Positions 5,408 through 33,991 of a stretch of 37,291 nucleotides of DNA are shown piece by piece. The notes beneath the pieces are model-generated. The model saw only the letters and a list, made by a program, of their open reading frames with translations. It was not told where the DNA came from and searched no databases. Origin of the DNA: a virus; the IMG/VR virus record IMGVR_UViG_3300028299_000011, positions 1-37,291 of that record; one strand, 5' to 3'. Every line of letters starts with the position of its first letter. The stretch's first letter is position 1. A program made the position numbers and the translations under genes.

Positions 5408-7561
5408 TTATAAGGTTTTTTTCTTATTTTCATCTTCGGTATATACGGTACCATCTGGATGTTTTTTAACTAGCCCACTTTCGGTATATACAACCTTAGG
5501 TGGCATTGGATGTTTTTCAACTGGCCCACTTTCCGTATACACAACCTTAGGTGGTATTGGATTTTTTACAATTGGCCCACTTTCTGTATACACAACCTTA
5601 GGTGGTATTGGATTTTTTACAATTGGCCCACTTTCTGTATACACAACACCATTTGGTTGTTTAAGTATTGGCCCACTTTCTGTATACACAACACCATTTG
5701 GTTGTTTAAGTATTGCCCCACTTTCTGTATATACAACTCCATTTGGATTCTTTACAACTGGCCCACTTTCGGTGTATACAACACCATCTGGTGGTTTAAC
5801 TATTGGTCCAGGTTCTGTATATACAACACCATCTGGTGGTTTAACTATTGGCCCAGGTTCTTGATATACAACACCATGTGGTGGTTTAATGACTGGACCA
5901 GGTTCTTGATATACAACACCATCAGGTGGTTTAATAAATGGCCCAGGTTCTTGGTATACAACACCATCTGGTGGTTTAATGAATGGATCACCTTCCTGAT
6001 ATACAACATCATCTACCATAGGTTTTATTTCTGTGTTTCCATACAATATAGCTAATTGTTCACTATTTAGATTCATTTGAGATAAATATAATCTCTCTAA
6101 ATCACCTTCATTTATATTATCATTATACAATCCTTCATATAATGACATAAACGCTTGCTGACGAAGTTTATTTATTTCTGATGTTAAAAAAGTACTTATG
6201 CCAGCTCTTAGAGTATTGAAATTACCATTTAATCCATCTAGTATTATTTGTCTGTACGGGCCAAGTGGGGTTTCATCTAACAATGAAATAGCGATTCTTT
6301 CTAAATTTATTGAATCTTTTACATCATCTAATAATTGCCTCATTAATCCCTGTCTCTGACTATCCATATAATTTTTTACAGATATTTCTCGTTGTAATTT
6401 TAATTTATCTGCCCCCAAATTAGCCGTATTTGTCAATAATCCACCTGTATTAGAAAGTCCACCACTAGTTTCAGCTTCTGGTACATTCTGTTTACTTTCA
6501 TTTTCAAAATCACCAAAGTATTTATTTATATCAAAATTAACTTGGTCTTGTTCTTTATCTTTAACTTTACCATCATTACCATACGCTAATCTATTGTCTA
6601 GTATATAAGAATCTCCAATTAATCCAGGAGTTAATATTCTTCTGATAGATTTATAAAATATATTAAAATCAATAAAACTAAAATCTCTTGGTACACCAGC
6701 GTTAAGACCAGCTTGTGTTATATGTTGTGACCAAGATTTAGATTCACTGAAATCAAAATTACAATCATATAATGTTATTTTCATTATGGATTTTGGACTT
6801 TCTTTAAAATTATATTCGTAACTATTATTTGAATAATAAGGAATAACATAATTTCTATATTCATATAAGTCTATATCCATATTAAATCTAAGTAAATTTT
6901 CTGGCGCAGTATTTCTTTGATCTCTGTATGAATACACTAGATTATTATATAATTCTGATAGATATGTATTTGACATAAGAACATTTTCCTGTAATTCTAC
7001 AGATAATTTATCTTTTTTATAATCAATTATTTTTTTCATAAAATTTTCCATACCATCTACCTTATTAATATAATATGATTTTGGTCTAGAATTATCTATA
7101 AATCCTGGTTTTGGTATTATTCTAAATATTTCAGATAATCTAGATACAAATTCTTTATGTAAAACTTCTCTTTCTCCAAATAATATATCATATTCTCTTA
7201 TGAATCTAGTTAGGGAATTTTGTTTGAAAACATCCTTATCCATTTCTTGAAATAGTGGGGAATTACTACTATCAATCGTTATATCAAAAGATAATAAAAG
7301 TGGATCATCCACCCCATTATCATATCTAAAGTAATTTGAATAATCATCTCTCATTTCTTGTCTTCTAATAAAATCCCCCATCACTTCAGCGTTACCATTT
7401 TGTTTCTTAACGGTTTCTGGTTTTTTAACATCAACCTCAACACCAAGAAGATTAGTATTATAATATATATCTTCCTCATATCCACTTATATAATTACCAA
7501 GACCGATAGGTAATATATTTTTTCTTATAATTTGACCATCTTCTGTATTATCCCAGGGCAT
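5408..7561 (-). CDS. Baseplate/tail structural protein with C-terminal proline-rich repeats
   Basis: 717 aa. Residues 1-510 form a polar region with no family I can name. Within it, SIMKITLYDCNFDFSES resembles segments of T4-like tube and baseplate proteins. Residues from about 515 to the end are about 13 near-identical units of 15-17 residues of the type GVVYTESGPIVKNP. It lies between the spike and hub genes, so a baseplate or fibre-attachment role is likely. The repeats could form an extended stalk or an adhesive surface. No signal peptide or membrane segment. Confidence 0.7.
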   Translation of the reverse strand: MPWDNTEDGQIIRKNILPIGLGNYISGYEEDIYYNTNLLGVEVDVKKPETVKKQNGNAEVMGDFIRRQEMRDDYSNYFRYDNGVDDPLLLSFDITIDSSNSPLFQEMDKDVFKQNSLTRFIREYDILFGEREVLHKEFVSRLSEIFRIIPKPGFIDNSRPKSYYINKVDGMENFMKKIIDYKKDKLSVELQENVLMSNTYLSELYNNLVYSYRDQRNTAPENLLRFNMDIDLYEYRNYVIPYYSNNSYEYNFKESPKSIMKITLYDCNFDFSESKSWSQHITQAGLNAGVPRDFSFIDFNIFYKSIRRILTPGLIGDSYILDNRLAYGNDGKVKDKEQDQVNFDINKYFGDFENESKQNVPEAETSGGLSNTGGLLTNTANLGADKLKLQREISVKNYMDSQRQGLMRQLLDDVKDSINLERIAISLLDETPLGPYRQIILDGLNGNFNTLRAGISTFLTSEINKLRQQAFMSLYEGLYNDNINEGDLERLYLSQMNLNSEQLAILYGNTEIKPMVDDVVYQEGDPFIKPPDGVVYQEPGPFIKPPDGVVYQEPGPVIKPPHGVVYQEPGPIVKPPDGVVYTEPGPIVKPPDGVVYTESGPVVKNPNGVVYTESGAILKQPNGVVYTESGPILKQPNGVVYTESGPIVKNPIPPKVVYTESGPIVKNPIPPKVVYTESGPVEKHPMPPKVVYTESGLVKKHPDGTVYTEDENKKKTL
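5420..6018 (-). repeat. In-frame tandem repeats of 45-51 bp
   Basis: Encodes about 13 consecutive copies of VVY-[TQ]-E-x-G-P-[IVF]-x-K-x-P in the C-terminus of the 5408-7561 protein. Early copies use QEPGP...KPPD, later ones TESGP...KNP or KQPN, and three near the end have the longer KNPIPPK or KHPMPPK. This grading fits growth by unequal recombination. Unit length changes in whole codons, so the frame is kept. Confidence 0.9.
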
Positions 7562-11545: not shown

Positions 11546-11698
11546 ATGTATATGAAAAGTAGAGTATTTAATTTTAGACTGCATATAGAATTATATGAAT
11601 ATTTAAAAATGATATCAAAGAAGAACTTTATGACAATGAGTGGTTATCTGATTTTTCTATTAAAAAAAGATATGGAAAAGAATATTAAAAATGATTAA
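11546..11698 (+). CDS. Small ribbon-helix-helix-type DNA-binding protein, 50 aa
   Basis: Reads MYMKSRVFNFRLHIELYEYL, then MISKKNFMTMSGYLIFLLKK and a short charged end. One strand (RVFNFRL), a helix (HIELYEYLKMISKK), a turn with MTMSG and a second helix (YLIFLLKKDME) is the layout of Arc/CopG/MetJ repressors, and its length is typical. The start could also be the in-frame ATG at 11552. Its stop overlaps the start of the endonuclease gene by 8 bases (ATGATTAA), so the two are likely translationally coupled. A role in repressing the endonuclease is a reasonable inference. Confidence 0.65.
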   Translation: MYMKSRVFNFRLHIELYEYLKMISKKNFMTMSGYLIFLLKKDMEKNIKND

Positions 11699-12749
11699 AA
11701 AAGATATTTTGATAGAAAGATTTACTAAGATTCATAGTGATAGATATGATTACTCATTAGTTACTTATAAGGGAATGCATAAAAAAGTAATTATAGGTTG
11801 TTCGATACATGGAATATTTAATCAAACACCAGCTATTCATTTGAGTGGTAGTGGTTGTCCTGTATGTAACTCAGTTAAATTAAGTAAAAGTGATTTTATC
11901 AGTAGATGTAATGAAATACACAACAACAAATTCGATTATTCTTTAGTTGATTTTGGAGGAGTGTGTTATAAAATAATAATAATATGTCCAACACATGGTA
12001 ATTTTGAACAGAGAGCTGGAAATCATTCTTCTGGCCAAGGATGCCCTATGTGTTCTAATAAGAGATGGAATAATGAAATATTTATTAAAAAATCTATAAA
12101 AATCCATGGTGATAAATATGATTATTCTTTAGTTGATTATAAAAATGCACATACGAAAATAAAAATAATATGTCCTGAACATGGTGAATTTGAACAAATC
12201 CCATGGAATCATCTTTCTTTAAAAGAAGGTTGTCCATATTGTGCAGAAAATAAATCTAATTTGAAATTATCTAAAATGAAAGCATCAACTATACATAATA
12301 ACAAATATGATTATTCATATTTTACTAAATATATAAATGTTAAAGAGAAAATAAAAATAATATGTCCAGATCATGGTGAATTTACTCAGAAATTAAATAA
12401 TCATTTAAATGGTCAAGGATGTCCAATATGTGATGAATCAAAAGGAGAAAAAGAAATACGCCGTATTTTAGATGATAGTGGTTTTGAATATATTACAGAA
12501 AAAAAATTTGATGATTGTAAATATAAGAATTGTTTATCATTTGATTTTTATTTACCAGAACACAATATTTGTATAGAATATGATGGTATTCAACATTTTG
12601 AATCTGTTGATTTTTTTGGTGGAATTAGTAGATTAAAATATAATCAAAAAGTTGATCATATAAAAAATGATTATTGTAAAAATAATAATATAGAATTATT
12701 AAGGATAAAGTATACTGATTCTATAAAAGACAAATTAAACATTCTTTAG
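11691..12749 (+). CDS. Free-standing endonuclease with four zinc-ribbon-like repeats (DUF723-type) and a PD-(D/E)xK-like domain
   Basis: 352 aa. Four repeats of about 55-60 residues follow the pattern IH..KYDYSLV.Y....KI.IIC..HG.F.Q....H....GCP.C, with Cys/His pairs that could bind zinc and DNA. They end near residue 245. The C-terminal domain has GEKEI, then LSFDFYLPE and CIEYDGIQHF, the Glu/Asp/Glu spacing of Vsr/PD-(D/E)xK-like nucleases. Such genes are typical selfish endonucleases of large phages and giant viruses. Alanine codons are GCT/GCA only, unlike the neighbouring uvsX gene. It separates the baseplate block from the replication block. Confidence 0.8.
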   Translation: MIKKDILIERFTKIHSDRYDYSLVTYKGMHKKVIIGCSIHGIFNQTPAIHLSGSGCPVCNSVKLSKSDFISRCNEIHNNKFDYSLVDFGGVCYKIIIICPTHGNFEQRAGNHSSGQGCPMCSNKRWNNEIFIKKSIKIHGDKYDYSLVDYKNAHTKIKIICPEHGEFEQIPWNHLSLKEGCPYCAENKSNLKLSKMKASTIHNNKYDYSYFTKYINVKEKIKIICPDHGEFTQKLNNHLNGQGCPICDESKGEKEIRRILDDSGFEYITEKKFDDCKYKNCLSFDFYLPEHNICIEYDGIQHFESVDFFGGISRLKYNQKVDHIKNDYCKNNNIELLRIKYTDSIKDKLNIL

Positions 12750-14370: not shown

Positions 14371-14670
14371 ATGAGAAAATTAATTATTAGAGTATTTTAC
14401 ATAAGTGTAAGAGGTCTAAGCAGACAGCACGCCGAACAAACAATGTTTGATCTTATGACAGAATATAACCCAGAGGAAAATCTACCTGAGGATATTCTTG
14501 AACATTATTTCATTCATGATATTTGGATACCAATCACTGACGGTCAATCTAGAGATTCAAAAGTAGAAATTATTTATCCTAATAAATTTGAATTTGAAGA
14601 TTTGAGTTTAGAGAATATAGATTTGTTAATAGATAAACTAAATGAGATAAAAAATAAAATGAATAATTAA
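14371..14670 (+). CDS. Hypothetical protein, 99 aa
   Basis: Begins MRKLIIRVFYISVRGLSRQ, with a strand followed by a helix containing QHAEQTM, then HDIWIPITDG and EIIYPN. The pattern is compact and single-domain. I cannot name a function. Its stop overlaps the helicase N-half start by one base (TAATG), so the two are probably translationally coupled. Confidence 0.65.
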   Translation: MRKLIIRVFYISVRGLSRQHAEQTMFDLMTEYNPEENLPEDILEHYFIHDIWIPITDGQSRDSKVEIIYPNKFEFEDLSLENIDLLIDKLNEIKNKMNN

Positions 14671-15371
14671 TGGAGGTAATGAATAAAAATATGGAGAAGA
14701 ATTTCTTCACATATATTTTAGAAAATCCAGCACAATTTGGTAAAGTAGAAGCGTATTTCTTTAAGGATGATCATATACAACTTGTATATTCTATTGTCCG
14801 TGAAGAATATCTGATTTCAAAGAAAGTTCCATCATTACAACAGATTGTTGATATGGTTAAACTCAATGACCCAGAGGGAAAGATACCAAATGAAATAATT
14901 AAAATTATACTTAAAAATGATATAACTGATAAAAAAGATTGGTTGGAAATGAGATTCAGATCATGGAAAATTTCTAATTTAGTTCGTAATAATACTAGTC
15001 AGACTATTACTGAGTTAAGAAATTTACAAGATCTTGATTTGGAGAATGTTAAGAGTGTAACTGAGAAAATAAGAAATCTTTATAATAATATTCCATTGAT
15101 GGATGAAGATGAAGATGACTTGGGTGATGATTTTGATAATCCAGAATCACACCGTCAGGATATCGCTAAATATACAATACCAACTGGGTGGTCAAGTATG
15201 GATAAAATATTAGGTGGTGGATGGGATTTAGCAACTTTTACAGTATTTATGGGGGAGACAAACTGTGGTAAGTGCGCTCATTATCAGTCAATTATAAAGA
15301 TAAAGAATAAAAAAACAGGAATAATAGAGTCTATGAGTATAGGTGATTTTTATAAATTAAAAAAAATATGA
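14670..15371 (+). CDS. Replicative DNA helicase (gp41/DnaB-type), N-terminal half fused to a split-intein N-fragment
   Basis: 233 aa. Residues 1-201 are the N-terminal helicase domain and linker, then the RecA-core start GWSSMDKILGGGWDLATFTV and GETNCGK, which is Walker A without its last residue. From Cys202 (base 15273) the sequence is intein: CAHYQSIIKIKNKKTG and on to SIGDFYKLKKI, then stop. Alone it cannot be an ATPase. Joined to residue 122 onward of the 17260-18348 product it gives GETNCGKS and a 442-residue helicase, close to T4 gp41. Alternative starts are at 14679 and 14691; a GGAGG at 14672-14676 is placed best for 14691, so the first seven residues are uncertain. Confidence 0.88.
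   Translation: MEVMNKNMEKNFFTYILENPAQFGKVEAYFFKDDHIQLVYSIVREEYLISKKVPSLQQIVDMVKLNDPEGKIPNEIIKIILKNDITDKKDWLEMRFRSWKISNLVRNNTSQTITELRNLQDLDLENVKSVTEKIRNLYNNIPLMDEDEDDLGDDFDNPESHRQDIAKYTIPTGWSSMDKILGGGWDLATFTVFMGETNCGKCAHYQSIIKIKNKKTGIIESMSIGDFYKLKKI
15273..15368 (+). other. Split intein N-fragment, 32 residues
   Basis: Begins with the nucleophile Cys1 and contains only block A and the following strand, ending at the gene's own stop codon. Block B, usually on the N-fragment, is on the partner. This places the break much earlier than in canonical split inteins such as DnaE or gp41-1 (about 100 plus 35 residues), and resembles the atypical AceL-TerL type of split. Confidence 0.82.
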
Positions 15372-15393
15372 ATAATTCAATTAGACTCACCCA

Positions 15394-15409
15394 TTTTAAT
15401 ATATACAAA
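15394..15409 (+). promoter_or_regulatory. AT-box promoter candidate for the homing endonuclease
   Basis: TTTTAATATATACAAA, 11 bases before the start at 15421 and after the stop of the helicase N-half. It could let the endonuclease be transcribed apart from the helicase operon. Confidence 0.45.
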
Positions 15410-15420
15410 TAAAAAGAGTT

Positions 15421-16563
15421 ATGAAATGTGAAATTTGTAATAAAGAGTTTAATAACACTAAAGGACTTTCCCTTCATCTAGTTCAAGTACATAAATTTAA
15501 TAAAAAAGACAAGAAAGACTACTATGATAAATACTTAAAAAGGAACGGTGAAGGAAACTGTTATTTTTGTGAAAATGAATCAATATTTTTTAATTTAACT
15601 AAAGGATATCATAGAATATGTGAATCAAAAGAGTGTTTAGGAAAAACAAGAGCTACTGGAACATATGAGTTTTTAATGTATAAATATAATTTATCAGAAA
15701 AGGACGCGATAAAACTTATGAATGAGAGAGCGAATGAAAGAGGAGAAAAAATAAAAGAATCACTAGATAATAAACTAAAAGAAAATCCATATTTTCATAA
15801 AGAAAAATCTCATCAGGCGAAAGAATATTGGATGAAAAAAGGATATTCAGAAGAGGAATCTGTTGAAAAATCCTATAGTATTATGAAAATGATACATAAG
15901 AAGACTTCAAAGAAAAAAAAAGAACACCCAGAATTATATAAAAATTCTTATAAAAATCAAACAGGATATTGGTTAAAAAGAGGACTTACAGAAGAAGAAT
16001 CAAAAGAACAGGTTAAAGAAAGACAGAGAACATTTACATTAGAAAAGTGTATTAAAAAATATGGTGAGAAAAAGGGATTAGAAATATGGACAGAAAGACA
16101 ATTCAAGTGGTCAAATATAATGGAAGAAAAATATAGAAATGGAGAATTTACGAAATTTAGAAAAGATCCATATTCTAATTGTGAGATTGAGTTATTTGAT
16201 AATGTTGTTCATAAATTAAAAATTGATGGTAAATTTTATTATGGTGATAATCAATTTTATAAATATTTTAATGAAATAGGAAAAACATTTTCATATGATT
16301 TTGTTTTTAAAAATAGAATAATAGAGTTTAATGGTGATTATTGGCATTGTAATCCAAATATTTATGAGAAAGAATATTTTCATAAGTACCATCAAATGAC
16401 AGCGGTTGAAATATGGGATAGAGATAAATTAAGAAAAGAAATGATTGAAAAACAAGGATATGAAATTTTAGTTATTTGGGAGAATGACTATAAACAAAAT
16501 AAAGATAAAGTTATACAAGAATGTATAGATTTTATTAAAAACAATAACCAGAATGAAATTTAA
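15421..16563 (+). CDS. Homing endonuclease of the Vsr-like (EDxHD) type, between the helicase halves
   Basis: 380 aa. The N-terminus has a C2H2-like finger (CEICNKEFNNTKGLSLHLVQ), then a second Cys set (CYFCENES...CESKECLG). Repeats containing YWMKKGYSEEESVE and YWLKRGLTEEESKE probably bind DNA. The C-terminal nuclease has FSYDFVFKNRIIEFNGDYWH, then CNPNIY, DRDKLRKEMIEKQGYEILVIWENDY. This is the Vsr-like family found with fractured genes in phages (I-Bth0305I and relatives). Four of its five alanine codons are GCG, as in core phage genes, so it may be a long-term resident. It would spread the gene break by cutting uninterrupted helicase alleles; that is inference. Confidence 0.82.
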   Translation: MKCEICNKEFNNTKGLSLHLVQVHKFNKKDKKDYYDKYLKRNGEGNCYFCENESIFFNLTKGYHRICESKECLGKTRATGTYEFLMYKYNLSEKDAIKLMNERANERGEKIKESLDNKLKENPYFHKEKSHQAKEYWMKKGYSEEESVEKSYSIMKMIHKKTSKKKKEHPELYKNSYKNQTGYWLKRGLTEEESKEQVKERQRTFTLEKCIKKYGEKKGLEIWTERQFKWSNIMEEKYRNGEFTKFRKDPYSNCEIELFDNVVHKLKIDGKFYYGDNQFYKYFNEIGKTFSYDFVFKNRIIEFNGDYWHCNPNIYEKEYFHKYHQMTAVEIWDRDKLRKEMIEKQGYEILVIWENDYKQNKDKVIQECIDFIKNNNQNEI

Positions 16564-17251
16564 TGATAAATGGACAAGAGAAGTGAATGATAGATATCGT
16601 CAAATGATAAAGGAAAAATATTCAAGAGATGAGATTAGGGATGAGTTAGGTCATTTGATGAAATATCACCCAGAAGGTAAATTTGATAGTGGAGGAGGTA
16701 TATTTCCATATAGAAGATTTTTGGGAATTTTAAATGAAATAAAATTTCATCCGAATTATATTTATTTCAATTTTAAATATGATGTTTCTTTATGGTATAA
16801 AGATAAAAAAGATATTATTTGTTATTTTACTATAAATGATATTGATTATGTTTTATTGTTAGAATATTTGATAGAAGATAATGATTTTTTCAATAATGAG
16901 GTAGTTTATAATGTTTTTTTTGCAATAAAAGATCGGTACGATTTGTTTATAAAAGAAATGAAAAGGGGGGAGATTAAAAAAGATGAAATAGATAAGTTAA
17001 GAGTTATGATGGAGGAAGAAACGAATCTTGGAGATGTTGTTAAGGTTTTTAACGCTATATCATATATTTTATTAAAAATTTTATCACATATAGAAAATCC
17101 TATTTATATGGTATCAGATACGAATAATCTTAAAAAAATAAAATTTTATAAAAAATCAATAGAAGATTCATTTAAAGAAAAGTATGAATTATTTGTTGGA
17201 AAGAGTTCACATACAGATAAAAAATCATATTATTTTAAAATAAAAAAATAA
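16553..17251 (+). CDS. Unknown protein, 232 aa, inside the fractured helicase locus
   Basis: Overlaps the endonuclease end by 11 bases and stops 8 bases before the helicase C-half, so it is locked into this locus. The sequence begins MKFNDKWTREVNDRYRQMIK and has KFDSGGGIFPYRRFLGILNE. It is rich in Lys, Asp and aromatic residues, with no zinc finger, nuclease or ATPase motif that I can see. No family recognised. It could be a helper of the mobile endonuclease or a passenger gene. Confidence 0.65.
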   Translation: MKFNDKWTREVNDRYRQMIKEKYSRDEIRDELGHLMKYHPEGKFDSGGGIFPYRRFLGILNEIKFHPNYIYFNFKYDVSLWYKDKKDIICYFTINDIDYVLLLEYLIEDNDFFNNEVVYNVFFAIKDRYDLFIKEMKRGEIKKDEIDKLRVMMEEETNLGDVVKVFNAISYILLKILSHIENPIYMVSDTNNLKKIKFYKKSIEDSFKEKYELFVGKSSHTDKKSYYFKIKK

Positions 17252-17259
17252 AAACAATA

Positions 17260-17622
17260 ATGAGAAAATTTATAGATACAATAGAAATAGATGACTGGGA
17301 AGTTGAAACAGATACAGGATGGTCTGATATAAAAGCTATTGGAAAGACAACTGAATATGATGAATGGGTTTTAAAAACAAAAAATACTGAACTTATTTGT
17401 GCTGATACACATATTGTTTTTAGAGAAAATATCGGGGAGATTTTTAATGATATGGAAGAAATTTATGTTAAGGATTTGAAAATTGGTGATTGTATCGTCA
17501 CAAAAAGTGGTGTTGAAAAAATTATTGATATACATAAAACAGAAAATAAGTCAAATATGTATGATTTACAGTTAGATGATAAAAACCATAGATTTTATTC
17601 TAATGATATATTAAGTCATAAT
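17260..17622 (+). other. Split intein C-fragment, 121 residues
   Basis: Covers everything after block A, including the Thr/His block B motif (ADTHIVF) and the C-terminal blocks with His-Asn before Ser+1. Together with the 32-residue N-fragment it gives a 153-residue mini-intein with no endonuclease domain. The endonuclease is encoded separately at 15421-16563. Confidence 0.82.
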
Positions 17623-18348
17623 TCAATGTGGTTACAAAATATCGCGGTTAACGCGGTAGAATATGGTAAAGTTATAGTTATTATAACATTAGAAATGTCA
17701 ATGAGAAAAGTTATGAAACGATTGGGTGCGATGAGGTTGAAAATTGACATAGATCAATACGATGAACTTAGTAAAGATACAACATTTATAAAAAATAGAA
17801 TTAATCAAGTAATTGGTAAGAATAATGGTATGTTTAATACAGATAAATCTGGAAAGATATTTGTTAAAAAATATAATACTAGTGATTGTAACATTATTGA
17901 TATTGATAATTACATAAGTAGATTACAAGAATCCAAGAATTTAAAAGTTGATATGATAATAGTTGATTATATTAATATTATGTCAGTAGATAGTGGGAGC
18001 AAAGATATTAAAAATAATTTATATATGAAAGGAAAACATCTAGCGGAAGGACTGAGATATATCGCGGATAAATATAATACGGTTGTTATAACCGCTACTC
18101 AGTTGGATCGTGCGGTATGGGGGGCGAATGATGTTAAATTGAATGATATTCCAGAGAGTAAAGCTATCGCGGAAACCGCGGATACGGTTTGGGCTATTAT
18201 TAGAACACCAAGTATGAAAAAAGAGAATAAGTATAAATTGAAAATATTAAAACTTCGTGATGGTGAACATAAAGAAGAACAAATAAGATTTGATTTTAAT
18301 ACAAAATATTTAACAATAGAAAATGATATGATAGAGGGGTCAGTTTGA
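17260..18348 (+). CDS. Replicative DNA helicase (gp41/DnaB-type), C-terminal half preceded by a split-intein C-fragment
   Basis: 362 aa. Residues 1-121 are intein: block B-like ICADTHIVF, a strand-rich middle, then MYDLQLDDKNHRFYSNDILS ending HN, with Ser122 as the +1 residue. Residues 122-362 continue the helicase core from the last Walker A residue: SMWLQNIAVNAVEYGK, VIIVDYIN as Walker B region (MIIVDYINIMSVDSG), then TATQLDRAVW, and an arginine-finger-type end NKYKLKILKLRDGE. The gene cannot give a working helicase unless spliced in trans to the 14670-15371 product. Alanine codons are mostly GCG in the helicase part and GCT in the intein part. Confidence 0.88.
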   Translation: MRKFIDTIEIDDWEVETDTGWSDIKAIGKTTEYDEWVLKTKNTELICADTHIVFRENIGEIFNDMEEIYVKDLKIGDCIVTKSGVEKIIDIHKTENKSNMYDLQLDDKNHRFYSNDILSHNSMWLQNIAVNAVEYGKVIVIITLEMSMRKVMKRLGAMRLKIDIDQYDELSKDTTFIKNRINQVIGKNNGMFNTDKSGKIFVKKYNTSDCNIIDIDNYISRLQESKNLKVDMIIVDYINIMSVDSGSKDIKNNLYMKGKHLAEGLRYIADKYNTVVITATQLDRAVWGANDVKLNDIPESKAIAETADTVWAIIRTPSMKKENKYKLKILKLRDGEHKEEQIRFDFNTKYLTIENDMIEGSV

Positions 18349-19206: not shown

Positions 19207-22200
19207 ATGAATTTTTACTCTAGAGAAGAGGTTTATAAATCAACTCTTGATTATTTTAATGGTGATTCACTCGCTACTGATGTATGGATTAATAAATACG
19301 CGTTGAAGACTGATGAGAAGATTTATGAACTAACACCAGATGATATGCATAGAAGAATAGCGAAAGAATTATCTAGGATTGAAAGTAAATATCCAAATCC
19401 ATTGAGTGAGGAAAAAATATTTGATTTGATAAAAAATTTCAAATATATCGTTCCACAAGGGAGTCCGATGTCTGGAATTGGAAACAATAAACAAGTTGTA
19501 AGTCTCTCAAACTGTTTTGTTATAGGAAATGAAGCGGATTCTTATGGTGGAATTTTTATGACAGACCAAGAACAAGCTCAATTGATGAAAAGAAGAGGTG
19601 GTGTTGGTCACGATTTATCTCATATAAGACCTAAAAAATCACCCGTAAAAAATTCCGCGTTAACATCAACTGGAATAGTACCATTTATGGAAAGATTTTC
19701 CAACACTACTCGTGAGGTAGCACAAGATGGTCGCAGAGGAGCATTAATGCTTTCAATTTCTGTAAAGCACCCAGATTCAGAGGATTTTATTGATGCGAAA
19801 TTAGATAAGAAAAAAATAACAGGGGCTAATATATCTGTTAAAATTGATGATGAATTTCTTAAATCTGTTGAAACAAATAAAGAATATATACAAAAATTTC
19901 CAATAGACTCTGATTCACCAATAGTTGAAAAGATTATAGATCCATCACTGTTGTGGAATAAAATAATCCATAACGCGTGGAAATCTGCGGAACCAGGAAT
20001 ATTGTTTTGGGATACAATAATTAGAGAATCTGTGCCAGATTGTTACGCGGATTTGGGGTTTGCCACAATTAGTACAAATCCTTGTATTGTTGGAGATACA
20101 TTGATTTCGGTTGCTGATGGTAGAAACGCTGTTAGTATAAAACAATTAACTGAAGAAGGAAAAGATGTATTAGTGTACTGTTTGGATAATAATGGTAAAT
20201 TGGCCATAAGGACAATGCGAAATCCAAGAATTACTGGATATAATCAAAGGATTTATAAAATTACATTAGAAGGGGGCCATAAAATAAGAGTAACTGGAAA
20301 TCACAAAATTAGATTATCTAATGGTGAATATGTAGAAGCGAAAGATTTAAAATATGCTGATAGCCTTCATATTATGACTAAATGGAAAAATCCTATTGTT
20401 ATAGATGATAATAAATCAAAAAATGATTATATGTGGATTAATAATGCACAATTCAAAAAAACTATATCAGAACATAGATTTGTTTATGAACAATATCATA
20501 ATATTAAATTAAATAGTGGGCAGATTATACATCATATAGATTATGATACATTAAACAATAATGTAAATAATCTTGAAATTATGACAAGAGATGAACACAA
20601 TGAGTTTCATAGAAAAGATATGATGGGTAAAAATAATCCTATATTTAAAATAAAATCTGATGAAAAAAAATTTTTAGAATATTCAAAAAAAATATCATTA
20701 TCTTGTAGTGGTATAAAGAATGGAAATTATATGGATGTTTCTAATGAACATATAATAAATCAAGCCATAATATTAACAAAAAAATTAGATAGGAGATTTA
20801 GCAACAGAGATTGGGTTAATCACGCCAAAGAAAATAATTTACCACAAAGATTCTCTAATTTTAGAAAAAATAAATTAGGATCTATTACAACATTATCAAA
20901 ACGAATAGCACTAGAATTGGGATATGATAAAATAAATATAGATCCAAGAATTGTTGAAACATATAAAAAAGCTTTAGATGGTGGTTATAATACTGAGATA
21001 ATTAATAATAGGGTTATGGTAATTAAATATTGTGAGATGTGTAATAAAGAATTTAAGGTTAATTATTTTAATAGAGAAATATCATTTTGTGGACATTCTT
21101 GTTCATTACAAAAGATTAATAATGATAATAAAATTAAAGAAAAAAGAACATTTACTATAAATGAGATATTTAATAGGAGGGGAGATGATAACAAAAAGAA
21201 ACAGGTTAAGATTTATTCCAATCTTAAATTTAAATTAGGTAGGAATCCACAATTAAAGGAGTGGGAAGATGAATGTAGAGAATTAAAAATTCCATTTAGA
21301 CTTAAAACCAAATATGGATTTTTTGATTTTTCAGAATTGATAGAAGAATCAAAATATTTTAATCACAAAGTAATATCTATTGATGAAGATGGATACGAAA
21401 ATGTATACAATGGAACAGTTGATGACTTTCATAATTTTTTCTCTGGGTGTTTTATTGAGGAATGTTCCAATAATAAACCTAAGTATTTGAGTATTAATCA
21501 ATTAAATTGTGGTGAGATAACCCTCTGTAAATATGATAGTTGCAGATTAATCGCGATGAATTTGTATGGTTTTGTTGAAAACCCATTTACAAAAGAATCA
21601 TTTTTTAATTTTGATAAATTTAAAGAATATGTCATTTATGGTCAACGATTTATGGATGATGTTATTGATTTAGAATTAGAAAAAATAGAAACTATTTTAG
21701 AGAAAATTAAAAGTGATCCAGAAGATGATTTTATAAAAAGTATAGAAATAGATTTATGGAAAAAAATAAAAGATAAAGCTATTAGGGGTCGTAGAACAGG
21801 TCTTGGTGTTACCGCGGAGGGAGATATGTTAGCCGCGTTAGGATTTAGATACGGAACAAAAGAAGCGACTAGTTTTTCTATAGAAATTCATAAAACTCTC
21901 GCAATTGAAGCGTATCGTTCTTCAGCGATAATGGCGAAAGAGAGGGGAAGTTTTGAGATTTATGATTGTGAAAGAGAAGTTAATAATCCATTCATATCTA
22001 GATTAAAAGAGAATGACCCAATGTTAGATAAAATGTTAAAAGAATATGGTAGAAGAAATATAGCGTTATTAACAGTTGCTCCAACTGGTAGTTTATCAAT
22101 TTTAACAAAAACAACATCTGGATTAGAACCTGTATTTTCACCCGCTTACAAAAGAAGAAGAAAAATCAATCCAAATGATAAAAATTCTAGGTCTGATTTT

Positions 22201-23169
22201 GTTGATGATAATGATGATCATTGGGAAGAATATACAATTCTTCATCCAAAATTTATTGTATGGTTAGAATTAAATAATTATAATGTTTCTAGTGTATTAA
22301 ATATGACAGAAGAAGAATTGGATAAATTAGTAGAAAAATCACCATATTACAAAGCTTCATCAAATGATATAGATTGGCATGAAAAAGTTAGAATGCAAGG
22401 AGAAGTTCAAAAATGGGTAGATCATTCGATAGCTGCAACAATAAATCTTCCATCATCAACAACTGAAGAAATGGTTGATGAACTTTACAAAACCGCTTGG
22501 AAATATGGCTGCAAGGGAATTACTGTTTATAGAGATGGTAGTAGAGATGGTGTTCTTATTAGAGATGATAAAGACAAGAAAACTGTTGAACAATATTTGA
22601 AAGAAAATAACGCGCCAAAAAGACCAAAAACACTTGAATGTGAAGTAGTTAGATTTGTAAATAACAAAGAAAAGTGGGTTGGATTTTTAGGTATGTATGA
22701 TGAGGATGGGACAAAATATCCATATGAATTGTTTACTGGATTGATGGAATCGTTTCCAGTTCCAGGATATGTTGAAAAAGCGTGGATTAGAAAAATGAAA
22801 GATAAAACAACAAGTAAATCACAATATGATCTAGTTTATTTAGATAAAGATGGTTATGAAGTTATAATGACTGGATTAAACAGGGCGTTTGATCGTGAGT
22901 TTTGGAATACTAGTAAGATGTTATCCGCGATGTTAAGACATAAAATTCACCTTCCAACTGTTATGAATCTAGTTGATACATTACAAATAAACAAAAATGG
23001 AGACACACCATTCTTTGGAACTTGGCAAGCGGGGGTTAAAAGGATTTTGAAGAAATATTTAAAAACATCACAAATTGATGAAAATTCTTGTCCAGAATGT
23101 GGATCTACTAATTTAGTTAGATTAGAAGGGTGTGTAAAATGTCTAGATTGTCAATGGAATCGCTGCTGA
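19207..23169 (+). CDS. nrdJ: Class II (B12-dependent) ribonucleotide reductase with an HNH-containing intein
   Basis: 1320 aa as translated, 845 after removal of the intein (residues 293-767). Reductase signatures are VPQGSPMSGIGN, SLSNCFVIG, MKRRGGVGHDLSHIRPKKSP, NTTREVAQDGRRGALML, the active-site NPCGEIT (rebuilt by splicing), LTVAPTGSLSIL, and GCKGITVYRDGSRDGVL. The C-terminal CPECG...CVKCLDC zinc ribbon is typical of NrdJ. It makes deoxynucleotides independently of oxygen using adenosylcobalamin, which the host must supply. The intein splits the protein exactly before the Cys of NPCGE, so unspliced enzyme must be inactive. Confidence 0.92.
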   Translation: MNFYSREEVYKSTLDYFNGDSLATDVWINKYALKTDEKIYELTPDDMHRRIAKELSRIESKYPNPLSEEKIFDLIKNFKYIVPQGSPMSGIGNNKQVVSLSNCFVIGNEADSYGGIFMTDQEQAQLMKRRGGVGHDLSHIRPKKSPVKNSALTSTGIVPFMERFSNTTREVAQDGRRGALMLSISVKHPDSEDFIDAKLDKKKITGANISVKIDDEFLKSVETNKEYIQKFPIDSDSPIVEKIIDPSLLWNKIIHNAWKSAEPGILFWDTIIRESVPDCYADLGFATISTNPCIVGDTLISVADGRNAVSIKQLTEEGKDVLVYCLDNNGKLAIRTMRNPRITGYNQRIYKITLEGGHKIRVTGNHKIRLSNGEYVEAKDLKYADSLHIMTKWKNPIVIDDNKSKNDYMWINNAQFKKTISEHRFVYEQYHNIKLNSGQIIHHIDYDTLNNNVNNLEIMTRDEHNEFHRKDMMGKNNPIFKIKSDEKKFLEYSKKISLSCSGIKNGNYMDVSNEHIINQAIILTKKLDRRFSNRDWVNHAKENNLPQRFSNFRKNKLGSITTLSKRIALELGYDKINIDPRIVETYKKALDGGYNTEIINNRVMVIKYCEMCNKEFKVNYFNREISFCGHSCSLQKINNDNKIKEKRTFTINEIFNRRGDDNKKKQVKIYSNLKFKLGRNPQLKEWEDECRELKIPFRLKTKYGFFDFSELIEESKYFNHKVISIDEDGYENVYNGTVDDFHNFFSGCFIEECSNNKPKYLSINQLNCGEITLCKYDSCRLIAMNLYGFVENPFTKESFFNFDKFKEYVIYGQRFMDDVIDLELEKIETILEKIKSDPEDDFIKSIEIDLWKKIKDKAIRGRRTGLGVTAEGDMLAALGFRYGTKEATSFSIEIHKTLAIEAYRSSAIMAKERGSFEIYDCEREVNNPFISRLKENDPMLDKMLKEYGRRNIALLTVAPTGSLSILTKTTSGLEPVFSPAYKRRRKINPNDKNSRSDFVDDNDDHWEEYTILHPKFIVWLELNNYNVSSVLNMTEEELDKLVEKSPYYKASSNDIDWHEKVRMQGEVQKWVDHSIAATINLPSSTTEEMVDELYKTAWKYGCKGITVYRDGSRDGVLIRDDKDKKTVEQYLKENNAPKRPKTLECEVVRFVNNKEKWVGFLGMYDEDGTKYPYELFTGLMESFPVPGYVEKAWIRKMKDKTTSKSQYDLVYLDKDGYEVIMTGLNRAFDREFWNTSKMLSAMLRHKIHLPTVMNLVDTLQINKNGDTPFFGTWQAGVKRILKKYLKTSQIDENSCPECGSTNLVRLEGCVKCLDCQWNRC
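20083..21507 (+). mobile_element. Intein in the reductase gene, 475 residues, HNH endonuclease type
   Basis: Starts CIVGDTLISVADG (block A); block B is GGHKIRVTGNHKIRL. The endonuclease insert carries HRFVYEQYH, then IIHHIDYDTLNNNVNNLEIM and DEHNEFH, the HNH_3 type used by homing inteins and group I introns. A Cys-rich CEMCNKEF...SFCGHSCS part may bind DNA. The end has GTVDDFHNFFSGCF (block F) and SINQLN before Cys+1. The residue before the terminal Asn is Leu instead of the usual His. Only 1 of about 10 alanine codons is GCG, against roughly 21 of 36 in the flanking exteins, so it is a later arrival. Confidence 0.9.
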
Positions 23170-29645: not shown

Positions 29646-30365
29646 ATGAAGAAAGACACTAAAGAAGAATTTATAGATAAATCAATAAAAGTACATAATT
29701 ATAGGTATAACTATTCATTAGTTGAATATAAAACAAATAAAATAAAAGTTAAAATAATTTGTAAAGAGCATGGAGTATTTGAACAACGACCAAATGATCA
29801 TTTAATGGGCCAAGGATGTTCTGAATGTAAGAAAAGAAAATTAAGTAGATTAAAAAGAAAAAGTTTAAGTGAATTTATAAATCAGTCAAATAAAATTCAT
29901 AATAATAAATATGATTATTCTAAATCTAAATATGAAAATATAGATAAAAAGGTCATTATAATTTGTAAAAAACACGGAGAATTTCTTCAAACTCCTCATC
30001 GTCACTTATCTAGCCAAGGATGCCCAAAGTGTAAAATGTCAATTGGGGAAAATAAAATTATGAGTTATTTAATTAGTAAAAATACATTATTTGAATTTCA
30101 AAAAACTTTTGATGATTGTTTATCTCCAAATGGTAGAAAAATGTTATTTGATTTTTATTTACCTGAAAAAAATGTATGTATAGAATATGATGGCCAACAA
30201 CATTATAAATCCATTATCAATTTTGGTGGAGATAAAAGATTTGAAACTCAAAAGAAATATGATAAAATCAAAACAGAATTTTGCTCAAATAATAATATAA
30301 AATTGATAAGAATACCTTATTATAAAATTAAAAATATTGATAAAATTCTAACAAATTTATTTTAA
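29646..30365 (+). CDS. Free-standing endonuclease with two DUF723-type repeats and a PD-(D/E)xK-like domain
   Basis: 239 aa, a shorter relative of the 11691-12749 protein. Two repeats of the form IH..KYDYS...Y....KVIIICK.HGEF.Q..H....GC..C occupy residues 10-125. The nuclease follows: GENKIM, MLFDFYLPE, CIEYDGQQHY. Two repeats are missing relative to the other copy. It sits alone between clpP and the HD gene with its own AT box, as usual for selfish genes in intergenic space. No GCG alanine codons were seen. Confidence 0.8.
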   Translation: MKKDTKEEFIDKSIKVHNYRYNYSLVEYKTNKIKVKIICKEHGVFEQRPNDHLMGQGCSECKKRKLSRLKRKSLSEFINQSNKIHNNKYDYSKSKYENIDKKVIIICKKHGEFLQTPHRHLSSQGCPKCKMSIGENKIMSYLISKNTLFEFQKTFDDCLSPNGRKMLFDFYLPEKNVCIEYDGQQHYKSIINFGGDKRFETQKKYDKIKTEFCSNNNIKLIRIPYYKIKNIDKILTNLF

Positions 30366-31480: not shown

Positions 31481-32398
31481 ATGAATTGTTCATATAGCCC
31501 AGATGACATTAAAAATATTAATGAAATTAAAAAATTCCTAGATGATAATAATGTCGAATATAGTACAGAATATTCTAATTTTTGTTTATGGTTCAATAAT
31601 CCTGAACACCGTTCGTATGAAATAGAATATGTTCCATCTATTCAATATCCCATATCATATCCAAAATATGGAATACCTGGAGTTGCCAAAGATTTTTTCT
31701 TTAAGTTAAGCTATGAAGCAGAGACTGAAAATAATTCATTTAAATTATGGATAAAAGATTTTGAATGGAATGATATAAACAAAAAAGAAATTTTGAAATC
31801 TTATATACTACATTCCGCTGATAAAACACCAAACAAATTTTACGCTAGAGATTGTGAAATTAGGGTTGTGGATTCGAAAGAAGCTAGACAGTTTGAAATT
31901 GAAAATTGTTTTTATGGAAAAAGAGGCGCTTCTTTAAATCTAGGATTATATCCTAAAAAAGAAAAAAATGGAATAACAACAGATACTCTTCTAATGTTAT
32001 ATACTTTTGGTAAAAATTATTTTGGAAAAAATGATGGAGTTATTGAAATTATCAGAGTTGGTACAAAAAGATTTTTTCATATTACTGGTGGAGCTTCTAA
32101 ATTACTAGCTCATTTCCTAAATAATTATAAGTCCTTACAAATAGGTAAAAATATAATAGATGTTAAATCAATAAAATTTTATTCAGATTATGATCACAAT
32201 TTAGGAGATTCCCTAGATAAAATGGGATTTGAATTTGTGGGATATTCTAAAGGAGGTTTTGTAAATTATTGGTTAGATTCTGGAGTAGTTAAACATAGAG
32301 AACCGATGAGACATAAGTGGGTTATGGAACAAATGAAGGATGGAAAATGTTTAGCTATTCCTAACGCTGGCGTTAAAGTGTTTATTATGAATGTGTAA
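31481..32398 (+). CDS. Homing-endonuclease-related protein, 305 aa, nuclease part degenerate or absent
   Basis: The C-terminal half (FYARDCEIRVVDSKEARQFE; GGASKLLAHFLNNY; YSDYDHNLGDSLDKMGFEFV; KHREPMRHKW) matches, piece by piece, the end of the convergent 32351-33991 protein (YGRKCEIREI; KLFKYFIENY; YSDRSWSRGNLYKKLGFEFV). The N-terminal half has no clear Vsr-type active site, although DFEWNDINKKEILKSYI resembles the segment that follows it in that protein. None of its ten or so alanine codons is GCG, a mark of mobile genes here. Stop and partner's stop overlap by 48 bases. Confidence 0.65.
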   Translation: MNCSYSPDDIKNINEIKKFLDDNNVEYSTEYSNFCLWFNNPEHRSYEIEYVPSIQYPISYPKYGIPGVAKDFFFKLSYEAETENNSFKLWIKDFEWNDINKKEILKSYILHSADKTPNKFYARDCEIRVVDSKEARQFEIENCFYGKRGASLNLGLYPKKEKNGITTDTLLMLYTFGKNYFGKNDGVIEIIRVGTKRFFHITGGASKLLAHFLNNYKSLQIGKNIIDVKSIKFYSDYDHNLGDSLDKMGFEFVGYSKGGFVNYWLDSGVVKHREPMRHKWVMEQMKDGKCLAIPNAGVKVFIMNV

Positions 32399-33991
32399 TT
32401 CAAATTTTAAATTTCCACTATCATAAATTCTATAAATTTCTCTATCCATCATTATTTCGTGTTCGGTTTTATTAGAAGAAAATCCTTCTTTAACTAATTT
32501 ATCTTTCCTATAATTAAACTTGTTATGTCTTATTCCATCAATAACATAATAATAGTTAGGTTCAGTTTTTTCAACAAATTCAAATCCTAATTTTTTGTAC
32601 AAATTTCCTCTACTCCAACTTCTATCCGAGTAAGTTGTTACGAGTTTTGGTTTATAATTTTCAATAAAGTACTTGAATAATTTATTTTCCGCATCAACAA
32701 CATTTGTATTTAGTTTATTACAAAACCTTAATAGTTCATATCCACTAAATCTCTTTCCAAAAATCATTAAACTAACTAATTCATTTTCATAAAATAATCC
32801 TACTTTAACACTTGAACCAATAAATCCCTGAATATGGTTTTTCCCTAAAAACTCTCTAACTAATTTATTATCTATTATTTCACGAATTTCACATTTTCTT
32901 CCGTATATCTTATTTTCAGTTTTTCCTAACTTATTTAATATCATTGATTTAACAATATCATTCTTGTAAATCCAATCATCCTCATAAATATGAATTAATT
33001 GAATGTTATTTTCTTCACATATTTCTGTTTTATTTAGATGATAATTGTTAGGTTTATTTAATTCATTGTGCCAATAAATTCCATTAAATTCAAACGCTAA
33101 TTTTAATTCAGGAATATAGATATCTAATTCTTTTCCATATGATCTATCATTAAATAATATATTTTCTTTATAATTTTCTTTAATGAAATCTTGTAATTGA
33201 ATTTCATATCCAGAATTAGAATATGAACTTATTGGATTACAAATTGTACATAATTCGGTATTTAATTTTATTCTATGATAAAACATAGTATAAAATATTT
33301 TATATTTGTGATTTTTTTCACAATGAATTATTAATTCTTTATTTTTCATGTCATAATCAATAACATTATATTTTTTATATTTATCAATTAGATTTTTTCT
33401 TTTTGTTTCATTTATTTTATCCATTATTTCAACAGACATTGATGGAATTTCAAATCCATATTTTTCAATATTTGTTTTCTTTATTTTTTCTCTTATTTCT
33501 TTGTTTTTCCATACATTTCTAACTCCATATTTTTCAATATTTGTTTTTTCAAATTTATCTTTAATGGTTTTATGTTGTAATGGAAATTCAACTCCATATT
33601 TTTTTACCATCCCCTTTTTTCTTAATTCAATATCTTGTAATGGGGTGTCATATCCATATTTTTCATTATTTGTTATTTTTTGTTTTTCTTTAAATTCATC
33701 TAATTGTGAAGAGTGTTCAACACCATATTTTTCTAAGTTAGTTTTTATCATTTTTTCAACAGTTTTTTTACTATTCATAGGAGATACACCACCATATTTT
33801 TCCAAGTTGGTTTTCTTTACTTTAATTCTAGAACATTTATGGCAATAATATTTATCTTTTAGTTTATTTGTTATTTTATAATATGTTCTATATTCCATTT
33901 CTTTTTCTTTTTCACATATATCACATTTCGTAAGTATATTTAAATGACTGCCTTTACTTACTTTTTTGGATGTTATATCACTTACTATCAT
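32351..33991 (-). CDS. Homing-endonuclease-like protein with EKYG repeats and a Vsr-like nuclease domain
   Basis: 546 aa. Residues 1-45 hold two CxxC pairs (CDICEKEKE; CHKCSR). Residues 45-190 are about seven repeats of the form KTNxEKYGVExP, thought to be DNA-binding in phage homing endonucleases. The nuclease is at about 270-350: GKELDIYIPELKLAFEFNGI, WHNE, then CEENNIQLIHIYEDDW. The C-terminal domain (370-520) is the one shared with 31481-32398 and recalls an acetyltransferase-like fold. It stands alone on the minus strand with its own AT box. Confidence 0.75.
   Translation of the reverse strand: MIVSDITSKKVSKGSHLNILTKCDICEKEKEMEYRTYYKITNKLKDKYYCHKCSRIKVKKTNLEKYGGVSPMNSKKTVEKMIKTNLEKYGVEHSSQLDEFKEKQKITNNEKYGYDTPLQDIELRKKGMVKKYGVEFPLQHKTIKDKFEKTNIEKYGVRNVWKNKEIREKIKKTNIEKYGFEIPSMSVEIMDKINETKRKNLIDKYKKYNVIDYDMKNKELIIHCEKNHKYKIFYTMFYHRIKLNTELCTICNPISSYSNSGYEIQLQDFIKENYKENILFNDRSYGKELDIYIPELKLAFEFNGIYWHNELNKPNNYHLNKTEICEENNIQLIHIYEDDWIYKNDIVKSMILNKLGKTENKIYGRKCEIREIIDNKLVREFLGKNHIQGFIGSSVKVGLFYENELVSLMIFGKRFSGYELLRFCNKLNTNVVDAENKLFKYFIENYKPKLVTTYSDRSWSRGNLYKKLGFEFVEKTEPNYYYVIDGIRHNKFNYRKDKLVKEGFSSNKTEHEIMMDREIYRIYDSGNLKFELHIHNKHFNASVRNS

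Follow-up and report, generated by a model that had tools for sequence, protein, structure and literature searches.

The fractured genes of the gp41-1, NrdJ-1 and IMPDH-1 types, which are attributed to Dassa and colleagues in 2009, reportedly carry inteins that are split late, into about 100 + 35-50 amino acids (aa), and the insertion site of gp41-1 is said to be other than the Walker A motif. The inteins AceL-TerL, GOS-TerL and Cat are split after the first helix, which leaves a short N-terminal intein fragment (IntN) of 25-37 aa (PMC13014065, PMC11766414), and VidaL, PolB16, AceL-TerL and GOS-TerL are the natural short-IntN inteins listed in a paper of 2026 (PMC13014065). EDxHD homing endonucleases have been described among the group I intron homing endonucleases (PMC3943268). 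Here we describe a replicative helicase gene that is interrupted at positions 14670-18348 of the IMG/VR virus record IMGVR_UViG_3300028299_000011, the whole stretch of which (37,291 nucleotides) is called the window. We are confident that this is a fractured helicase gene of a large phage, in which a presumably trans-splicing intein and a predicted EDxHD homing endonuclease belong to a family of Walker A cassettes and an orphan open reading frame (ORF) is probably carried along as a passenger. The locus is a real new variant of the fractured genes with atypically split inteins, and no published helicase intein with an atypical split was found in the literature searched, many subscription papers being beyond reach.

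Four ORFs on the same strand make up the locus (14670-15371, 15421-16563, 16553-17251 and 17260-18348, encoding 233, 380, 232 and 362 aa, respectively), which contain the following features:

14670-15272, plus strand: N-extein, helicase residues 1-201, ending GETNCGK (Walker A up to the lysine); ORF, PHROG_19 158-366, E 7.9e-14
15273-15368, plus strand: IntN, 32 aa, CAHYQSIIKIKNKKTGIIESMSIGDFYKLKKI, followed by the stop codon at 15369-15371; leave-one-out hidden Markov model (HMM), E 6.9e-15
15421-16563, plus strand: predicted homing endonuclease gene, 380 aa; Pfam MTES_1575, match to the Vsr/EDxHD-type fold, homologs in most split loci
16553-17251, plus strand: orphan ORF, 232 aa; no Pfam or PHROG match
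17260-17622, plus strand: C-terminal intein fragment (IntC), 121 aa, with CADTHIVF and the terminal residues RFYSNDILSHN; leave-one-out HMM, E 5.3e-48
17623-18348, plus strand: C-extein, helicase residues 202-442, Ser+1 being the Walker A serine, stop codon included; DnaB_C, E 6.7e-20; PHROG_19 367-576, E 9.4e-41

The first ORF encodes 201 helicase residues, which end in CGK, and then a Cys-led tail of 32 residues up to the stop codon, whereas the last ORF starts with 121 intein residues ending SNDILSHN, followed by a serine and 240 further helicase residues. Joined, the two exteins give a helicase of 442 residues (201 + 241), whose Walker A motif is completed on joining (GETNCGK^S); the element is inserted precisely at the junction of the Walker A lysine with the serine. 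The PHROG_19 profile of DnaB-like helicases continues from the first ORF (158-366) into the last (367-576) with neither gap nor overlap at the junction, and the last ORF carries the DnaB_C ATPase domain (Pfam) of the gp41/DnaB replicative helicases. Both halves, the residues at their ends and the joined gp41-type helicase with the Walker A motif GETNCGKS had been read from the sequence in an earlier note on this DNA, and the ORFs and the PHROG_19 and DnaB_C matches bear this out. Profiles of the intein family from which the window had been left out recover both intein pieces with the E-values listed above, and no other comparable match to these profiles is present in the six frames of the window. 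Since the leave-one-out profiles recover both pieces, PHROG_19 is split across the two ORFs and DnaB_C lies in the last one, the observation is far beyond chance. The contig is derived from a metagenome, and an assembly artefact, in which two different genes had been combined or a chimeric contig had been formed, might therefore be considered; its probability is practically negligible, as the arrangement is found again in another contig (L002), with IntC, C-extein and orphan ORF 100% identical to the window, and related helicase loci show a homologous IntN-(endonuclease)-IntC order. An intact helicase gene, which the earlier note had named as evidence that would contradict its proposal, is not found as a second copy within the 37,291-base record, which is a genome fragment only.

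The two intein pieces correspond at the sequence level to a short-IntN, atypically split intein of 32 + 121 aa, in which Cys1, the penultimate His, the terminal Asn and Ser+1 are all kept. The split is atypical, as had been noticed before; it follows the first intein helix and recurs in relatives; the homologous IntN pieces of 75 split loci are 31-59 aa long. The block-B region was rightly placed on the C fragment, where its histidine is invariant, but its motif is CADTHIVF and not the textbook TxxH. When the IntC profile of the family was compared with the PDB, it matched VidaL (3.6e-10), gp41-1 (6e-10) and CatC (8.3e-6). The contiguous relative L081 is predicted to fold as a HINT domain (pLDDT 87) with VidaL as nearest structure (E 1e-9, TM 0.83), and low confidence is found mainly in the linker that matches the split position. 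Like the fractured genes of the gp41-1 type, the locus has a split host gene, intein pieces on the halves and an endonuclease gene between them, and its IntC matches gp41-1, but the split is early instead of late. VidaL, which comes closest both among the solved folds and in the profile comparison, shares the atypical split with a short IntN; however, it is split after strand 2 (S1, PMC13014065), whereas in the window family the first helix precedes the split (S2). DnaBi1 (site b) of the Mycobacterium DnaB (PMC6195587) likewise sits in the P-loop of a replicative helicase and uses the P-loop serine as +1 nucleophile, but is a contiguous mini-intein of class 3 without endonuclease.

AceL-TerL, GOS-TerL and Cat are split at the same position as the window intein, after the first helix, and have a similarly short IntN and similar fragment lengths; this, and a profile that weakly resembles those of AceL (hhalign E 3.5e-6) and CatC (8.3e-6), might indicate that an intein of the AceL-TerL/GOS-TerL type moved from a terminase into the helicase. 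We consider this origin very unlikely, as the AceL relatives L170, L174, L178, L179 and L180 sit at another terminase site, EFE^CEFLGS, with Cys+1, as the Walker A motif of L174 is intact, and as the window family, located at the helicase Walker A with Ser+1, is closer to VidaL and gp41-1. The AceL-TerL query matched L170 at 99%. The insertion site rules out membership in AceL-TerL, and the window family is a sequence lineage apart from it, because the AceL relatives occupy a different terminase site with Cys+1. The comparison with AceL-TerL in the earlier note holds for the position of the split, but the nearest relatives are not of the AceL-TerL type.

Relatives of both fragments were found among metagenomic sequences, where the earlier note had proposed to look for them: a first scan of IMG/VR gave 78 relatives of IntC and a profile scan 467 stretches with such relatives, of which the best 80 were kept. 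According to Pfam, the host proteins are terminase, DnaB-type helicase, SMC/SbcC-type proteins (SbcC/gp46), ClpB, ClpX-type AAA and ABC ATPase. An N piece was recovered for 87 distinct members, 75 of them split and 12 contiguous, and 87 of 87 follow the Walker A GK of a P-loop ATPase, in a count that takes in members with Ser/Thr +1 only and was made with an IntN search model including three residues before the intein; weak Cys+1 intein matches elsewhere in terminase were excluded from it as second-site inteins. The window element is one member of a large, mostly atypically split phage intein family and no isolated oddity. In a tree of the joined pieces the window pairs with L014 (94/89) and lies in a group of nine close helicase inteins (93/93, the fork being drawn open); the tree as a whole, in which many forks are weak, requires 7 changes of target. 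Two elements of the family share one contig (IMGVR_UViG_3300029268_000006), L020 being located in the helicase and L050 in an ABC ATPase, and one may ask whether the pieces of one element splice with those of the other. Within about 10 kb of one phage (L053:602-11972), short-IntN split inteins accompanied by EDxHD endonucleases interrupt three genes, those of UvsX, a helicase and an SbcC-like protein; the more distant relative in this UvsX is located at GESG^TAKT, a site close to the GK position but not quite at it. UvsX genes with a late-split (conventional) intein adjoin the split helicase at L015:3312-4022, L018:2211-4077 and L021:2445-3137. Contiguous relatives at the terminase Walker A are also present in cultured Ackermannviridae (L092, L093 and L094, phages of Vibrio and Salmonella) and would be handy for bench work.

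The protein encoded by the second ORF consists of an N-terminal C2H2-like zinc finger, a helical middle part and a C-terminal nuclease domain of the Vsr/EDxHD type. The Pfam match to MTES_1575 has an E-value of 6.4e-6, below the gathering score, and a sequence search of the PDB gave nothing significant, so that the placement came only from the fold search, in which the AlphaFold model (pLDDT 82) matched the catalytic domain of I-Bth0305I (3r3p) at the top of the Foldseek results with probability 1.00, and then Vsr. An alignment of homologs revealed the invariant motif E302-x-N-G-D306-x-x-H309-x-N-P and a later D335. The enzyme is thus predicted to be of the Vsr/EDxHD type with I-Bth0305I as nearest solved fold, and the conserved E, D, H and D together with the fold matches support the Vsr-like homing endonuclease that had been suspected in the break. 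In contrast to the EDxHD family as described among group I intron endonucleases, its gene is located between intein halves and its N-terminus carries a zinc finger. Homologs lie between the halves of most split loci, in terminase, helicase, SbcC and ClpB, and in the pairs compared the endonuclease has a ratio of nonsynonymous to synonymous divergence (dN/dS) of 0.09-0.36, which indicates selection for function. Short-gap loci keep remnants of the endonuclease in 13 of 23 cases, mostly its last 20-40 codons and also in the helicase loci L014, L065 and L044; therefore, many of the split loci that lack the gene look as if they had lost it by deletion.

Among the close relatives in IMG/VR, L003, L005, L006, L008 and L009 have an unbroken helicase gene, which reads GETN(V/I)GKSMWL, and the helicase of the 735-kb uncultured phage LR756501 is likewise uninterrupted at the same codon. 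The empty site of L003 reads GETNVGKSMWLHN, and blastn aligns positions 14632-15262 of the window with 5358-5990 of L003 and the window from 17626 onward with L003 from 6004 onward. The locus accordingly shows what characterizes a fractured gene: the intein divides the host gene, the break contains the gene of an endonuclease, and uninterrupted alleles exist at the same site. Furthermore, the IntC piece is present in L004 and missing in L005, and the downstream DNA of the two is 85.8% identical. Between L016 and L018, the synonymous divergence (dS) is 0.31 for IntN, 0.45 for the endonuclease and 0.63 for IntC, compared with 2.8 and 1.2 for the exteins, values near or above 1 being rough; the pairs of the window with L014 and with L015 show the same direction, with the element lower than the exteins. 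The lower dS in the element than in the helicase points to a horizontal spread of the cassette and suggests that it may have moved between phages after their helicases had diverged.

Two other explanations for the broken gene have to be weighed. The gap in the window is 1.9 kb and homing endonucleases are common in phage introns, which might speak for an RNA intron (group I or II) that contains the endonuclease and the extra ORF, interrupts a contiguous intein gene and is taken out of the RNA ahead of translation, which would make trans-splicing unnecessary. This is most improbable: there is no Rfam match in the window, both pieces end or start as complete ORFs, and the same split occurs in L045, L063, L047, L031, L043, L014 and L044 with gaps of 14-151 bases, which are too short for such introns. 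As the gene is broken in the DNA, the locus might instead be decaying, with halves that either have lost their function or work unspliced as two subunits. Such decay is very unlikely, since the four residues for splicing named above are kept, dN/dS is well below 1 in the intein as well as in the extein parts, the same split is found in many unrelated contigs, and an unspliced pair would be left without a covalent Walker A loop.

For the fractured gene with a trans-splicing intein we propose that the helicase would be made as two precursors, neither of which has a complete Walker A loop, and that the 32- and 121-residue pieces would associate into one HINT domain, trans-splice Lys201 to Ser202 and release the intein. 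DNA replication is then likely to depend on trans-splicing, as predicted. The EDxHD/Vsr-type endonuclease would cleave helicase alleles that lack the intein, at the codons of the Walker A motif, and repair would copy the whole IntN-endonuclease-IntC cassette into the cut allele; the uninterrupted alleles, the divergence pattern and the conservation of the endonuclease are the grounds for this homing proposal. Several points weigh against this interpretation. Trans-splicing and the cutting of empty sites are both steps that we infer, the HINT model rests on the contiguous L081 standing in for the joined pieces of the window, the threonine of block B is outside the textbook TxxH position, and the fold match to I-Bth0305I has an E-value of 0.028 despite a probability of 1.0. 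In addition, dS fails to separate element and host gene clearly for the pairs window/L025 and L015/L016, the family count is tied to the search model and +1 residues given above, and the genome may hold an intact helicase gene elsewhere, because the record is a 37-kb fragment.

In five contiguous relatives, endonuclease genes that are complete and about 300 codons long occupy the +1 frame of an open IntN...IntC frame of the terminase; they are of the EDxHD type in four cases and of the HNH type in L067:

L051:1830-2786, +1 frame of the intein: overprinted endonuclease (EDxHD)
L075:4894-5784, +1 frame of the intein: overprinted endonuclease (EDxHD)
L097:2897-3802, +1 frame of the intein: overprinted endonuclease (EDxHD)
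L122:3084-3998, +1 frame of the intein: overprinted endonuclease (EDxHD)
L067:2788-3687, +1 frame of the intein: overprinted endonuclease (HNH)

Synonymous shuffling, which covered L051, L075 and L067, gave 15-20 stops in the intein frame, compared with none in the real sequences, and an open frame was reached in 0 of 20,000 shuffles each. The out-of-frame HNH insertion of ShiLan (PMC11855218) is similarly concealed in a host frame that is open; a splicing domain is lacking there, whereas the host frame of the five relatives carries a complete intein. We lean towards the view that a single lineage of atypically split inteins has specialised on the Walker A loop and passes, in the form of an IntN-endonuclease-IntC cassette, from one phage ATPase to others that are not homologous to it (terminase, replicative helicase, SbcC, ClpB, ClpX, ABC), with the relatives containing overprinted endonucleases as a plausible intermediate from contiguous to split. 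The family offers a natural series, made up of the empty site, contiguous inteins with and without an overprinted endonuclease, and split inteins with either the endonuclease or its remnant, which lets the origin of split inteins be tested. Few natural short-IntN split inteins have been characterised, and the family adds dozens with native Walker A exteins, which is useful for protein ligation. Moreover, core replication and packaging motors of phages would depend on trans-splicing at a catalytic loop.

The extra ORF that had been reported inside the break is present at 16553-17251 and overlaps the stop codon of the endonuclease gene by 11 bases. It has no relatives in phages and viral contigs except L002, and apart from this contig it is missing from the other helicase loci. 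A conserved role was considered and is ruled out by this lack of relatives and this absence; the orphan ORF is no general part of the element and is probably passenger DNA. Homologous ORFs of 80-91 aa, which differ from the orphan ORF of the window, follow the endonuclease at L021:4947-5189 and L022:5715-5990.

Elsewhere in the window, a ribonucleotide reductase ORF of 1320 aa (19207-23169) contains a contiguous intein with an HNH domain. The ORFs 11691-12749, 29646-30365 and 32351-33991 are probable free-standing endonuclease-like genes (DUF723/DUF4379 treble-clef; DUF7487), and the window therefore appears rich in genes of this kind. At the left end, an OrfB_IS605/TnpB-like gene with a Cas12f1-like TNB domain (1-1005) runs off the window, and close to the C-terminus of the ORF 5408-7561 a motif of the type GVVYTEPGPIVKPPD is imperfectly repeated about a dozen times.
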